Positions 41,951 through 46,672 of a stretch of 64,000 nucleotides of DNA are shown here, piece after piece. The notes beneath the pieces were generated by a model that worked only from the letters and a program-made list of their open reading frames with translations, made no database searches and was not told the origin of the DNA. Each line of letters opens with the position of its first letter. Positions within the stretch are counted from its first letter, which is position 1. The translations under genes and the position numbers were made by a program. This stretch comes from an uncultured Tateyamaria sp. (GTDB lineage: Bacteria; Pseudomonadota; Alphaproteobacteria; Rhodobacterales; Rhodobacteraceae): NCBI RefSeq assembly GCF_947497045.1, contig NZ_CANMEU010000004.1:372001-436000 (forward strand), written 5' to 3'.

Positions 41951-43483
41951 TCAGATTTCGGGCTCGGTTGCATCCAGGGTGAGCGGTGCGGCAGGTGTGC
42001 TGCGCAGATCATCAATGGTGAGCGGGTTTGTCGGCTTTGACAGCCGGTTGCGCACCACCCAGATCAGCCGATCCTGCGCCCGTGTGATCGCCACATAGGC
42101 CAGCCGTTTCCACAGTGGCTGCCCGGCCTCGGATCGTCCCATCCGCGCCGCGCCGTATAGGTCTGGCGCAAAGACCTGCACCGTGTCCCACTGGCTGCCT
42201 TGTGCTTTGTGGATCGTCACCGCCGCCCCGTGCAGGAACGTCGCCCCCATGCGCGCGGCGTAGGGGATGAACGGTTCTTCTTCATCCGGTTTTTCGATTT
42301 TCACAATGGAGGCCGCCGACACTTGAGGGTCCTCCGCCCCCATCACATGCAAACGCGAAAAGCCCGGCTTGCGCCCCTCCCCCAGATAGATCACCTGCGC
42401 CCCCTTGATCAGGCCGCGCGCCTCGAGGTCCAGCCGTTTCTTGCGATGTTTCAGCGGAAGTTCGAGGCCGTCGCAAATCAGCGGCTCCCCTTCGATCAGC
42501 GCATCCTGCGGCGCGCCATAGACATCGCGGAATGCGTTGATCAGCCGGATGCGTGTGGCGTTGCGCCAGACCAGAACGGGGCTGCGCGCCATCAGATCAA
42601 CCTCCACCCGCTGACCCCAGACAACGCGTTCGTCACGAGCGGCAGCCTCTTCCACCATCTTTTCAAAGCGGTAAAAGTCCACCTCGGGGTCCGCCAAAGC
42701 GTGCGCAAGGTCAAGGATCGGGTTGTCCGCCTCTTGCCGGTGGATGCGATTGAGGTTCAGCACGCGGGGGGCGGGCAGTTTTTCAAACACCATCGCACCG
42801 GATTGATTGACCGGGGCAAGCTGCGCCGGATCACCAAACATCAACAGAGTGGGAAAGATTTCCTTGAGATCCCCGAACTGCTTGTCATCCAGCATCGACG
42901 CCTCGTCGATGAACCCGATATCCAGCGGTTCCTCGCGGCGTTTCCAACCTGTGATAAAGTCCGAACCGCGCAGGCCCGCCGCCGCCAATGCGCCGGGGAT
43001 CGACTTGTTGCCCTGATAGAACGCATAGGCCCGGTCGAGGGCTTGGTCGGTCAGCCCTTCGACCTCGGGGCGGTCACCATTGCCTGCGAGCCACTCGGCA
43101 ATCCGCTCGTATTCCGGGTCATAGACCGGCGTATAAAGAATACGGTGGATCGTGGTCGCGGGCACCCCGCGAAAGCGCAAGACACTTGCCGCCTTGTTGG
43201 TGGGCGCGAGGATGGCGAGGGTGCGTTTGTCTTTACGCTTGCGTGATTCATAGTCGCCCGACACGATCTCGACTCCTGCCGCCTCAAGCGCCTTGTAAAG
43301 CTCGGCCAACAGCAGTGTCTTGCCCGACCCGGCCTTGCCCGTGATCGCCATGACGGAGGTTTTGGAGGACTTGGGCGGCATCAAAAGCGCGTCGTCCAGA
43401 TCAACCCCCGCGCCGCGCAACATGTCCGTTACGGCATCAAAGGCGCTCGCCTGATCGTCAGAAAGGGAGAGGGTCGTCGTCAT
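41951..43483 (-). CDS. RecD-like ATP-dependent DNA helicase
   Basis: A 510-residue superfamily 1B helicase resembling the RecD/TraA motor. Walker A is G-K-A-G-S-G-K55-T56; motif II is D193-E194-A-S; the C-terminal UvrD-type half has H-K-A-Q-G-S-Q-W-D and Y-V-A-I-T-R-A, which couple ATP use to single-strand movement. It lacks the long N-terminal domain of RecD2. Nearby genes give no clue to a partner. Role in DNA repair or recombination is inferred. Confidence 0.88.
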   Translation of the reverse strand: MTTTLSLSDDQASAFDAVTDMLRGAGVDLDDALLMPPKSSKTSVMAITGKAGSGKTLLLAELYKALEAAGVEIVSGDYESRKRKDKRTLAILAPTNKAASVLRFRGVPATTIHRILYTPVYDPEYERIAEWLAGNGDRPEVEGLTDQALDRAYAFYQGNKSIPGALAAAGLRGSDFITGWKRREEPLDIGFIDEASMLDDKQFGDLKEIFPTLLMFGDPAQLAPVNQSGAMVFEKLPAPRVLNLNRIHRQEADNPILDLAHALADPEVDFYRFEKMVEEAAARDERVVWGQRVEVDLMARSPVLVWRNATRIRLINAFRDVYGAPQDALIEGEPLICDGLELPLKHRKKRLDLEARGLIKGAQVIYLGEGRKPGFSRLHVMGAEDPQVSAASIVKIEKPDEEEPFIPYAARMGATFLHGAAVTIHKAQGSQWDTVQVFAPDLYGAARMGRSEAGQPLWKRLAYVAITRAQDRLIWVVRNRLSKPTNPLTIDDLRSTPAAPLTLDATEPEI

Positions 43484-43542: not shown

Positions 43543-44178
43543 TTAGGCTGTGCGTGCGAAAGGTTCGGGGGCGATTGTCCCGAAGGCGCGATCAAACCAC
43601 TGGCGCGAACGCTCAAGCGGCACGCCCGCACGTTCTGCCACCTTGGCGGCGGCACCTTGCTCGAAATGCCACAGCCCGACGCTGATCTGATCGCGGCCCG
43701 TGCCTGCGCTGCCCAGCACCTCTGGGGAGGAGCCGATCATACGGTAAATGCGGACCATGCGCGCATCAAAGACCCCGACGAAGTGTTCGACACCAAAATT
43801 CTGCATGATCTCACCCCCGCCCAGCATCAGCGCAGCGGCCACGTGGCTACCAGCGCCACGGGTCAGGCAAAACCGGGTGCATTCCCAAATGACCGGGCTG
43901 GTAATGGGGCCAGAGATCAGATCGCCAAAGTGCTCGTTCACCATAGTGCGCCCGGTCGTCGGCAGAAACCGCATGGACCCGCCATGGCTGCCGTCAGGTT
44001 CTTCCCAGATCACATAAAGCGGGTTCAGGTCATCATATTCGTCACGCTCGCACCCATCAGCATCAATGCTGACATCCCAGCCAAGTCGGGTTTTGAACTG
44101 ATCCGCACGGTCGCGAAACATGGTGCGGGCAAGTTTGGGGTGATCAACCAAGTCGGAGGCATAAAGATAGCGCAGCAT
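43543..44178 (-). CDS. Acyl-homoserine-lactone synthase (LuxI family)
   Basis: Makes an N-acyl-homoserine lactone signal from S-adenosylmethionine and an acyl carrier (ACP or CoA). The 211-residue protein keeps the family invariants: Arg24, Phe28, Trp34, Asp46/Asp49 in the E-R-D-E-Y-D-D stretch, Arg70, Phe84, Glu99 and Arg102. AAGGA precedes the ATG. It is transcribed after the luxR-type gene on the same strand but has its own 113-bp upstream region with a perfect CtrA box and an adjacent palindrome. Acyl chain length is not predictable. Confidence 0.95.
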   Translation of the reverse strand: MLRYLYASDLVDHPKLARTMFRDRADQFKTRLGWDVSIDADGCERDEYDDLNPLYVIWEEPDGSHGGSMRFLPTTGRTMVNEHFGDLISGPITSPVIWECTRFCLTRGAGSHVAAALMLGGGEIMQNFGVEHFVGVFDARMVRIYRMIGSSPEVLGSAGTGRDQISVGLWHFEQGAAAKVAERAGVPLERSRQWFDRAFGTIAPEPFARTA

Positions 44179-44224
44179 TTCAGGATTCCTTGTCAGACCA
44201 GAGCAGGTATGACCGAAACACTAC

Positions 44225-44240
44225 TTAAACGTGCGTTAAC
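44225..44240. promoter_or_regulatory. Perfect CtrA-type box upstream of luxI
   Basis: TTAA (44225-44228), seven bases, TTAAC (44236-44240): the full CtrA consensus TTAA-N7-TTAAC with no mismatch. It ends 47 bp upstream of the luxI start codon. CtrA control of this gene is inferred from the site alone. Confidence 0.6.
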
Positions 44241-44251
44241 GTCTAGACATT
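44238..44251. promoter_or_regulatory. Palindrome next to the luxI CtrA box, candidate LuxR site
   Basis: AACGTCTAGACATT has a perfect GTCTAGAC core and one mismatched pair in the flanks. It shares three bases with the CtrA box. It is shorter than a classical 18-20 bp lux box, so binding by the LuxR-type protein is a guess from location. Confidence 0.35.
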
Positions 44252-44265
44252 CTCGCGTACGATGT

Positions 44266-44283
44266 GTTGCCGCGCGTGGCAAC
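44266..44283 (-). terminator. Hairpin after the luxR-type gene
   Basis: GTTGCC and GGCAAC pair around GCGCGT, 8 bp after the luxR stop on the minus strand. No T-run follows, so termination would be inefficient and luxR transcription may read into luxI. Confidence 0.35.
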
Positions 44284-44291
44284 GGGGGGTG

Positions 44292-45023
44292 TCAGACGAC
44301 AATCAGCCCCCGACTCATTGCCCGTGCGACCGCGTGGGTCGTGTTCATAGCACCCAGTTTAAACCGGGCGCTTTCGATGTAGACGCGCAGGGTATGCTCG
44401 GAAATGGCGAGCGTATCGGCCACCTGAGCGCGGCTGTATCCCATCGCAAGGAACGTCATCGCATCGACCTCTCGCGGGCTGAGGGACTGGGGTTGATCGG
44501 GCGTCCTCTCTGGTTCGAAATCAAGAGCCTTTTCGTTGAAGTAGTGGGCGATCAGGATCAGGTCGCGGCGGTGCGCATCTGTCCAGGCGGCCCAGATGTC
44601 GTCGTCGCAGGAGTGGCTGACGGTGAAAAGTGCGAACTGGCCGTTGGGCCCCCGGATAGGCACCGAGAACCCCTGGTTCCCGACGCCGTGTGATATAGCC
44701 TCTGCCTGAAAGGCGCGGGCGGCTTTGCTGGACCAATCGAGCCGCTTCCAATCAACGGGGTGAAACCTTTGAAAACAACCAAGAATAACTGGATCGACGC
44801 GGAGGTAGTTTTGCTCAAGATAGCGATCACGCCATGTGTCTGAATATGTCCCGCATCCGTACTGCGCCCCGGCGGAATCGACCCAATGATAGATGACATG
44901 ACCAACCGAATAGTGGCTTTGGATCGCCTCGGTTGCGGCCTGTAATGCGTCCAGCCCCTCAGCTGTTTCCAAATCCCCCAAAATGACTTCCAACGGCTGC
45001 CTCGCCGTCGTGACGCTGACCAT
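44292..45023 (-). CDS. LuxR-family quorum-sensing regulator
   Basis: A 243-residue regulator with an N-terminal autoinducer-binding domain (about 15-165) and a C-terminal LuxR-type helix-turn-helix (about 180-238, L-S-P-R-E…S-E-H-T-L-R-V…K-L-G). The Tyr/Trp/Asp residues expected in the lactone pocket lie in the stretch from H-W-V-D (about 46-49) to L-R-V-D-P (about 74-78). Its start lies inside the 3' part of a 68-codon ORF in another frame, a 65-base overlap, so the two are probably translationally coupled. luxI follows after 113 bp. Confidence 0.93.
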   Translation of the reverse strand: MVSVTTARQPLEVILGDLETAEGLDALQAATEAIQSHYSVGHVIYHWVDSAGAQYGCGTYSDTWRDRYLEQNYLRVDPVILGCFQRFHPVDWKRLDWSSKAARAFQAEAISHGVGNQGFSVPIRGPNGQFALFTVSHSCDDDIWAAWTDAHRRDLILIAHYFNEKALDFEPERTPDQPQSLSPREVDAMTFLAMGYSRAQVADTLAISEHTLRVYIESARFKLGAMNTTHAVARAMSRGLIVV

Positions 45024-45165
45024 CTGCTGTATCCTTCATCGCGGCGATCTCGGCCATGGCAACGATTGCGGTGTCATCCAACTGTTCTGCCAAGTTTGGC
45101 ATGTTGTTGGCCCGTGCAAAGGTCTTGAGGTCCGTAAGAACGTCCAGTATCCAATCACTTCTCAT
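44959..45165 (-). CDS. Small ORF upstream of and overlapping luxR
   Basis: A 68-residue protein beginning M-R-S-D-W-I-L-D-V-L-T-D-L; the first 43 residues are amphipathic and look conserved with small ORFs next to luxR genes in other Rhodobacterales (from memory). The last 25 residues, which overlap luxR, look like unconstrained read-through. GGAGAG stands nine bases before the ATG. A CtrA box and a TATAGT -10-like element lie upstream. Function unknown; it may be a LuxR modulator or a leader that couples luxR translation. Confidence 0.7.
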   Translation of the reverse strand: MRSDWILDVLTDLKTFARANNMPNLAEQLDDTAIVAMAEIAAMKDTADGQRHDGEAAVGSHFGGFGNS

Positions 45166-45187
45166 TCCCAGACTCTCCCTGAAGTGG

Positions 45188-45203
45188 TTAATGAATCATT
45201 AAC
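45188..45203. promoter_or_regulatory. Perfect CtrA-type box upstream of the luxR leader ORF
   Basis: TTAA (45188-45191), seven bases, TTAAC (45199-45203), again the full consensus. It is embedded in a 17-base perfect odd palindrome (45187-45203). It lies 22 bp before the start codon and immediately downstream of TATAGT (45212-45207, minus strand), so a bound protein would sit at about the transcription start. Confidence 0.6.
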
Positions 45204-45317
45204 ACAACTATAGCATGAGCATTCTCACGCTGAAAATTCACCTATTTCTACTCCCCAGAAATGGTGAGGGCGCTTTTTTTAACCCACTGAACCTGTTGAA
45301 GCCCCCGAGAATACGAA

Positions 45318-45379: not shown

Positions 45380-46672
45380 TTAAGCGCGGGCCTCCAGCGC
45401 GTCTTCGAGGGTGCGCAGCCCGGTTTTAGGCGCTTGCACCAGCACCGACATATTGCCGGGCTTGTGTTCGTTACGCAGCATCTTCATGTGCGCGGCAGGC
45501 AGGTCGTTCCATTCGAACACTTCGGACATGCACGGGTCCAGACGGCGTTCGACCATCAGATGGTTGGCGGCCGAGGCTTGCTTGAGGTGCGCAAAGTGGC
45601 TGCCCTGCAAACGCTTTTGGTGCATCCACATATACCGGACATCAAAGGTACAGTTGAACCCGGTGGTGCCCGCGCAGATCACGACCATGCCGCCCTTCTT
45701 GCACACGAATGTCGACACCGGGAACGTGGATTCGCCGGGGTGTTCAAACACCATATCCACATTGACGCCCTTGCCGGTAATGTCCCAGATCGCTTTGCCA
45801 AACTTGCGCGCTTCCTTGAACCAGTCGTTATATTCCGGCGTGTTCACCGTAGGCATCTGCCCCCAGCAATTGAAATCCTTGCGGTTCAGGACGCCCTTTG
45901 CGCCCAGCTCCATCACGAAGTCGCGCTTGGATTCATCCGAAATGACCCCAATCGCATTGGCCCCGGCGGTGTTGATCAACTGGATCGCATAGGATCCCAA
46001 ACCACCCGAAGCCCCCCAGACCAGGACGTTCTGACCGGGTTTCAGATCGTGAGGTTCGTGCCCGAACAGCATCCGGTAGGCGGTCGCAAGCGTCAGCGTG
46101 TAACACGCACTTTCTTCCCAGGTCAGGTGCTTGGGGCGGGGCATCAATTGCTGGCTTTGCACACGGGTGAACTGGCTGAAGGACCCGTCCGGTGTCTCAT
46201 AACCCCAAATCCGTTGCGTTGGCGAATACATCGGATCGCCGCCGTTGCAGAATTCATCATCGCCATCATCCTGGTTGCAGTGGATTACCACCTCGTCCCC
46301 GACTTTCCAGCGTTTGACCCGGTCGCCCACGGCCCACACGATACCCGACGCATCGGAGCCTGCGATATGATAGGGGTGCTTGTGCCCGTCAAAGGGGCTG
46401 ATCGGCTGACCAAGCGCGGCCCACACCCCGTTATAGTTCACGCCCGCCGCCATCACGAGGACGAGCACGTCATTGCTGTCAAGTTCCGGCACCTCGACCA
46501 CCTCTTGCAACATGGCGCTGTCAGGTTCGCCATGGCGCTCGCGGCGGATCGCCCATGCGTACATTTGTTTGGGAACATAGCCCATCGGGGGTATCTCACC
46601 CATCTCGTACAGATCTTTTTCGGGCGCGTCGTAGGATGCAATGCCCGTGTCAGTTGCAAGGTCGAGTGCCAT
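45380..46672 (-). CDS. ccr: Crotonyl-CoA carboxylase/reductase
   Basis: Reductively carboxylates crotonyl-CoA to ethylmalonyl-CoA with NADPH and CO2, the key step of the ethylmalonyl-CoA pathway for acetate and C1 assimilation. The 430-residue medium-chain reductase has the nucleotide loop G-A-S-G-G-L-G (about 225-235) and long insertions typical of Ccr, such as the N-Q-D-D-G-D-D-E region. ATG 46672 has GGAGG upstream. It is monocistronic by appearance, with its own terminator. Ecm is encoded 2 kb away on the other strand. Confidence 0.96.
   Translation of the reverse strand: MALDLATDTGIASYDAPEKDLYEMGEIPPMGYVPKQMYAWAIRRERHGEPDSAMLQEVVEVPELDSNDVLVLVMAAGVNYNGVWAALGQPISPFDGHKHPYHIAGSDASGIVWAVGDRVKRWKVGDEVVIHCNQDDGDDEFCNGGDPMYSPTQRIWGYETPDGSFSQFTRVQSQQLMPRPKHLTWEESACYTLTLATAYRMLFGHEPHDLKPGQNVLVWGASGGLGSYAIQLINTAGANAIGVISDESKRDFVMELGAKGVLNRKDFNCWGQMPTVNTPEYNDWFKEARKFGKAIWDITGKGVNVDMVFEHPGESTFPVSTFVCKKGGMVVICAGTTGFNCTFDVRYMWMHQKRLQGSHFAHLKQASAANHLMVERRLDPCMSEVFEWNDLPAAHMKMLRNEHKPGNMSVLVQAPKTGLRTLEDALEARA

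Follow-up and report, generated by a model that had tools for sequence, protein, structure and literature searches.

A conserved palindromic box upstream of luxR as a probable CtrA input to roseobacter quorum-sensing operons of topology B

Within a 64,000-nucleotide stretch of a Tateyamaria genome (here called the window), a 17-bp palindrome upstream of luxR, at positions 45187 to 45203, is very probably a real, inherited CtrA site that feeds CtrA into the quorum-sensing operon, judging from its retention at orthologous loci. CtrA is a regulator of the cell cycle and of differentiation in alphaproteobacteria. The best explanation, to which we assign a probability of roughly 0.78, is that the palindrome is the inherited CtrA input of a Roseobacter topology-B operon consisting of a small ORF, luxR, and luxI, that its net effect is activation, and that the CtrA-like element in front of luxI is a half-site. 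A link between CtrA and quorum sensing is already known in Dinoroseobacter shibae; the Tateyamaria locus is a strong new example and not a new kind of system. What is added by these data is the depth and breadth of the conservation, the contrast with Phaeobacter, and a small protein of no known family that is linked to the box.

All parts of the locus are located on the minus strand. luxR (44292 to 45023; Pfam Autoind_bind, 7.9e-36, and GerE, 4.6e-11) is followed by luxI, encoding the AHL synthase (43543 to 44178; Pfam Autoind_synth, 7.2e-22). Between the palindrome and luxR lies a small ORF of 68 aa (44962 to 45165), supported by a profile, its pN/pS, and a predicted fold, which overlaps the luxR start. 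The upstream neighbor is ccr, for crotonyl-CoA carboxylase/reductase (45380 to 46660; NCBIfam TIGR01751, 1.3e-184), and the downstream neighbor encodes an ATP-dependent helicase (41951 to 43483) whose best NCBIfam match, a RecD2-type helicase at 1.8e-19, is below the model cutoff. With ccr before luxRI and this helicase-type gene after, the window has the arrangement designated topology B by Cude and Buchan (PMC3824088), in whose Table A1 both D. shibae DSHI_2852/2851 (luxR2I2) and PGA1_c03880/03890 of Phaeobacter inhibens DSM 17395 (there P. gallaeciensis) are entered as B1, a subgroup marked by a short-chain dehydrogenase gene following that of the helicase. The window locus is an ortholog of D. 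shibae luxR2I2, and the 13 best named relatives of its LuxI are all from Tateyamaria. Within the genus, luxI carries internal stops in two genomes (L127 and L128) and a LuxI match is absent in one of 20 (G006), which may point to local decay of the quorum-sensing system. The window's genome has a second luxI (48% identity) on a 3.3-kb contig (L211, G000:C36), and no luxR was matched in the surrounding sequence that was examined. A perfect box neighbors this gene, but at approximately 1.9 kb upstream, and a link between the two was not drawn.

An earlier, sequence-only reading of the window had placed TTAA-N7-TTAAC at 44225 to 44240 and 45188 to 45203 (both plus strand), noticed no further copy in the 64 kb, and estimated well under one copy by chance. 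The coordinates are exact, three strand matches at these two places are the sole exact ones, and dinucleotide shuffles give a mean of 0.02; with one mismatch tolerated, there are six strand matches compared with 1.42 expected. The distances, given as 47 and 22 bp, hold to within a base, with 46 bp between the first box and the luxI ATG (44178) and 21 bp between the second and the ATG (45165) of the small ORF leading into luxR. Because the luxR-side box is a 17-bp palindrome, GTTAATGATTCATTAAC (in plus orientation, GTTAATGA-A-TCATTAAC), it matches on both strands, the second exact match being on the other strand at 45187 to 45202. Both window sites agree exactly with the CtrA full-site sequence, TTAA-N7-TTAA(C). 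Genome-wide (4.24 Mb), perfect copies of the motif give 29 strand matches at 22 places and a control with the motif pattern reversed gives 15, placing the true motif at approximately twice the background. The earlier reading had made its case depend on the motif not being common genome-wide and on its conservation in front of orthologous lux genes; the motif proved less exclusive than that, whereas the luxR box is conserved. A perfect match on its own is, at only about twice background, not strong evidence, and the case must therefore rest on conservation.

The genome (G000) encodes CtrA (G000:C2:364948-365622), with 165 of 224 residues (74%) identical to Caulobacter CtrA and an identical DNA-binding stretch from LTGKEYQ to KLRKKL. 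Another of the perfect boxes (L023, G000:C8:10276-10291) lies 50 bp before a gene that we take to be divL-like, and one (L009, G000:C3:305600-305616) lies 457 bp before what is presumably the gene for a GTA terminase; neither protein had an NCBIfam match at 1e-10. A perfect box (L004, G000:C2:227804-227819) is also present approximately 19 bp before the start of the cckA ORF, for which the CckA model matched a partial protein at 4e-50, below its cutoff, and published accounts of how cckA responds to CtrA vary with the species (PMC3692519, PMC7232146, and PMC11974857). The majority of the 22 perfect places are not beside genes that we could connect with CtrA (profile searches covered six of their proteins). 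A perfect TTAA-N7-TTAAC (L028, G000:C20:20027-20042) was found approximately 400 bp from the cas1 gene of a type II CRISPR system (cas1_NMENI, 1.1e-66), with an intervening ORF that we assume to be cas2-like; its position near cas1 is possibly due to chance.

Conservation was examined in a set of 151 loci, made up of 80 kept from the 227 of the named collection, the 29 best (apart from the window's) and 40 weaker loci chosen by hand from a family search in which 267 of 394 genomes matched, D. shibae, and the window. Dropping six loci with identical luxI upstream sequence left 145, of which six were set aside and 139 could be aligned in the pre-luxR region. The exact core TTAA-N7-TTAA was present at the orthologous luxR place in 120 of the 139 loci, in keeping with the conservation at orthologous lux loci that the earlier reading had proposed checking, although these counts are not independent events because the loci are related and were picked by LuxI similarity. 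By source, 74 of 77 loci from the named collection, counting the window, and 46 of the remaining 62 had the exact core. It was absent in 19 loci, and a word with one mismatch occurred somewhere in the pre-luxR stretch, not always at the box, in 11 further loci. Across the 80 named-collection loci, 86 cores were counted in the 1.3 kb preceding luxI and a single one in the other 724,613 bases. When the window's words of 4-N7-4 spacing were compared at 235 positions before luxR, conservation was highest for TTAA-N7-TTAA, shared by 119 of the 138 other loci; the runner-up, inside the small ORF, was shared by 82, and the median was 7.

Using a profile of the small ORF, matches upstream of luxR were obtained in 137 of 145 loci, a tally that includes six more genomes from the genus of P. 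inhibens. The ORF was found in all 120 loci with the exact box and in 17 without it, and the eight loci with neither are those of L208 and of the seven examined genomes from the genus of P. inhibens, in all of which the luxR core is absent at this place. When whole genomes were searched, one copy each was identified in the window's genome and in D. shibae, with no match to the profile in P. inhibens or G094. A pN/pS of 0.054, calculated from the window and the 14 nearest loci, indicates strong purifying selection. The product, of approximately 70 aa, has the conserved pattern WILDVLxDLKxFAxxNGLxxLAEQLDDT... and is predicted to form a two-helix hairpin (mean pLDDT, 79). Searches with 41 members against Pfam and NCBIfam returned zero matches, comparison with the PDB gave nothing meaningful by sequence (best E value, 0.12) or by fold (best E value, 1.9), and no publication on the protein was found in the open-access literature.

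Adjacent to the box, a predicted upstream promoter, P_up (45236 to 45207), has a putative extended -10 (TG-C-TATAGT, 45207 to 45212) identified from a consensus scan together with column conservation. Each of the five specified bases of TGnTAnnnT is conserved at 85 to 88% in 94 nonredundant loci with the exact box, and the scan hit alone is weak, as shuffles yield 0.6 such sites. This best-supported -10 places the box over the start and not at -35; transcription would begin at about 45200, inside the box, which would span about -2 to +13. In Caulobacter, full CtrA motifs start mostly near -35 and go with activation, including one at -39 of ctrA P2, and half-sites over the -10 go with repression; repression is also the reading given to a full motif at -14 of ctrA P3 (PMC4287350). 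Lying over the predicted P_up start, the window box would have a repressing geometry, and it may have a dual role. The Caulobacter ctrA P2/P3 region resembles the window in that a single full motif is placed for two starts, which its authors read as activating one and repressing the other (PMC4287350), but the starts in Caulobacter are mapped and those here are predicted. A start approximately 39 bp downstream would coincide with the small-ORF ATG and would have a weak -10 (GAGTCT). Further upstream is an 18-bp imperfect palindrome, CTCACCATTTCTGGGGAG (45251 to 45268), with conserved columns from -66 to -49, about 60 bp before the predicted start, which is possibly a LuxR-type site. With up to three mismatches allowed, the genome holds two copies of this element, the other being at G000:C9:51176-51193 (L213); with just one other near copy, the element was not retained as a regulon marker.

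The D. shibae luxR2I2 locus (L167) has the same box at the same place as well as the same extended -10, 18-bp element, and small ORF; it differs from the window in that the full box at luxI is missing. Expression of luxR2I2 is reported to be reduced in ctrA, cckA, and chpT mutants of D. shibae, with CtrA sites predicted there and in other roseobacters (PMC4046655), and its rise is reported to begin 20 min after AHL (PMC6473078). While PMC4046655 speaks of two perfect CtrA sites at D. shibae luxR2, we found one core that matches both strands, and the published two sites may therefore be one palindrome counted twice. The pgaRI1 operon of P. inhibens, by our own reading the topology-B1 entry of PMC3824088 Table A1, is reported as unchanged in ctrA, cckA, and chpT mutants, a difference from D. 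shibae on which the authors remark (PMC11974857, a preprint). In contrast to the window, pgaRI1 is without the CtrA box and without the small ORF, and the upstream promoter elements, judged by eye, are missing too; the P. inhibens genome was matched by a plasmid at 99%.

CtrA dependence thus tracks the presence of the luxR box in the two species for which expression is reported, with activation as the sign. The opposite proposal, made in the earlier reading, is that CtrA acts from the luxR box chiefly as a repressor, keeping RNA polymerase from the start site of the conserved upstream promoter. The overlap on which it was based is borne out for the predicted P_up start, with the conserved extended -10 beside it, and the Caulobacter sites over the -10 and at -14 of ctrA P3 show that such placements have been read as repressing. 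Repression is not supported, however, as luxR2I2 expression falls when D. shibae, a species that shares both the box and the -10, loses ctrA, cckA, or chpT (PMC4046655), and the operon of the species without the box changes neither up nor down (PMC11974857). Activation fits better because luxR2I2 falls without ctrA in D. shibae and is unchanged in box-less P. inhibens, and mainly repressive action is considered unlikely; this contrast comprises two species and is confounded because the entire promoter region differs in Phaeobacter. The literature searched yielded no experiment on binding of CtrA to this promoter, and the D. shibae effect could therefore be indirect. A more speculative arrangement, which we regard as decidedly unlikely, is that the one palindromic box is a promoter switch, shutting the upstream promoter that would give a full leadered small ORF-luxR-luxI message and turning on transcription from the beginning of the small ORF or slightly within it, such that the state of CtrA would decide whether the approximately 70-aa protein, as a partner or modulator of LuxR, accompanies it.

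Whether a different protein could account for the box was also considered, and it is very improbable that its main ligand is a different regulator that recognizes a TTAAC-like half-site, such as one of the Crp/Fnr type. A Dnr/Fnr site of D. shibae has the TTAAC half in common with CtrA sites, and luxR2 transcripts rise when fnrL or dnrE is lost (PMC7232146); against this, TTAA-N7-TTAA has the spacing of CtrA sites and is exact across the aligned loci in the proportion given above, and the D. shibae operon follows the CtrA mutants (PMC4046655). That both boxes are products of chance is scarcely credible. The number of matches to the reversed pattern genome-wide lends this some weight, but chance is excluded for the luxR box, since its core is conserved across orthologous loci.

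Returning to the palindrome as an inherited, net activating CtrA input, phosphorylated CtrA would bind the luxR box and, on balance, raise transcription of the operon. Positive feedback would close wherever the CckA-ChpT-CtrA relay responds to AHL signaling with a rise; such a response has been reported for D. shibae and for Ruegeria sp. strain KLH11, where quorum sensing through SsaRI raises the relay and the authors suspect feedback (PMC3692519). The direction tested in KLH11 differs from that considered here, being from quorum sensing to CtrA, and the available part of PMC3692519 shows no CtrA site at ssaRI. For Tateyamaria, we infer direct CtrA binding, the regulatory sign, and the transcription starts. 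The earlier claim that CtrA feeds back on signal production is thus supported for the luxR box, given its conservation, the CtrA encoded in the genome, and the CtrA dependence of the D. shibae ortholog, but it is not novel, as the feedback was published in 2014 (PMC4046655). Quorum-sensing mutants of P. inhibens are reported to have raised flagellar gene expression and motility (PMC11974857), and the direction of quorum sensing is therefore not uniform across roseobacters. If the CtrA input at luxR is kept across most sampled roseobacter loci, quorum signaling in this abundant marine group would be partly a readout of the cell-cycle or differentiation state. CtrA sites at quorum-sensing genes have been described as scattered across the alphaproteobacteria and as probably having evolved several times (PMC4046655). 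For topology B, the distribution of the box suggests one inherited site with losses, such as in Phaeobacter, instead of repeated origin, which would also explain the differing CtrA dependence reported in the two model species.

The CtrA-like full box in front of luxI, GTTAACGCACGTTTAAG (44224 to 44240, minus strand), is an exact match on the plus strand, and the earlier reading had given it equal standing with the luxR box. This could not be upheld, as the full core at that place, -61 before luxI, is shared by only 2 of the 144 loci with 150 bp of upstream sequence, namely, the window and its closest relative (L030); only the GTTAAC half is conserved. TTAAC was found between -95 and -36 of luxI in 113 of 144 loci and TTAA in 129, compared with TTAAC in 60 of 8,683 60-bp segments downstream of the luxI start, a mostly coding and lenient background. 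In an alignment anchored on TTAAC (106 rows, 90 of them nonredundant), a TAnnnT-like -10 that is only moderately conserved lies 16 bp on from the 5' T of the anchor, and the predicted -10 of the window luxI promoter (TAGTGT, 44218 to 44223) fits these columns (+16 to +21). From this spacing, we infer that the half-site, found for the most part between about -48 and -63 relative to the ATG, would take the position that the downstream half has in activating CtrA sites of Caulobacter (PMC4287350). Such a half-site alone is insufficient, because P. inhibens retains TTAACC before pgaI yet is reported to be CtrA independent (PMC11974857).

On comparison of these loci, we lean towards the full luxI box being fortuitous, with only the GTTAAC half, or nothing, working there; the perfect form would then be a recent local extension of the conserved half-site. 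Its restriction to the window and L030 and the TTAACC of P. inhibens favor this, as do several other loci of the genus in which GTTAACGCACG is kept without the second half. On the other side, a full core is present within 150 bp upstream of luxI in 16 of the 144 loci, including 13 at -96 to -100 (12 of one sequence type overlapping the luxR end, and L192) and one at -129 (L170). The 12 loci of one type (eight titled Ruegeria, Silicibacter lacuscaerulensis, Falsiruegeria, Tropicibacter, and one other) indicate that full sites before luxI arose elsewhere too, although these cores are partly within codons, which may explain them otherwise. Two additional elements were identified between luxR and luxI. 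A CGnnCG element (CGTACG, 44256 to 44261, in the window) located 17 to 22 bp before TTAAC is conserved at 82 to 86% per base in 90 nonredundant loci and is a candidate LuxR site. A perfect inverted repeat, GTTGCC-ACGCGC-GGCAAC (44266 to 44283), whose arms recur in some members of the genus with a different middle, may be either a hairpin or a LuxR site.
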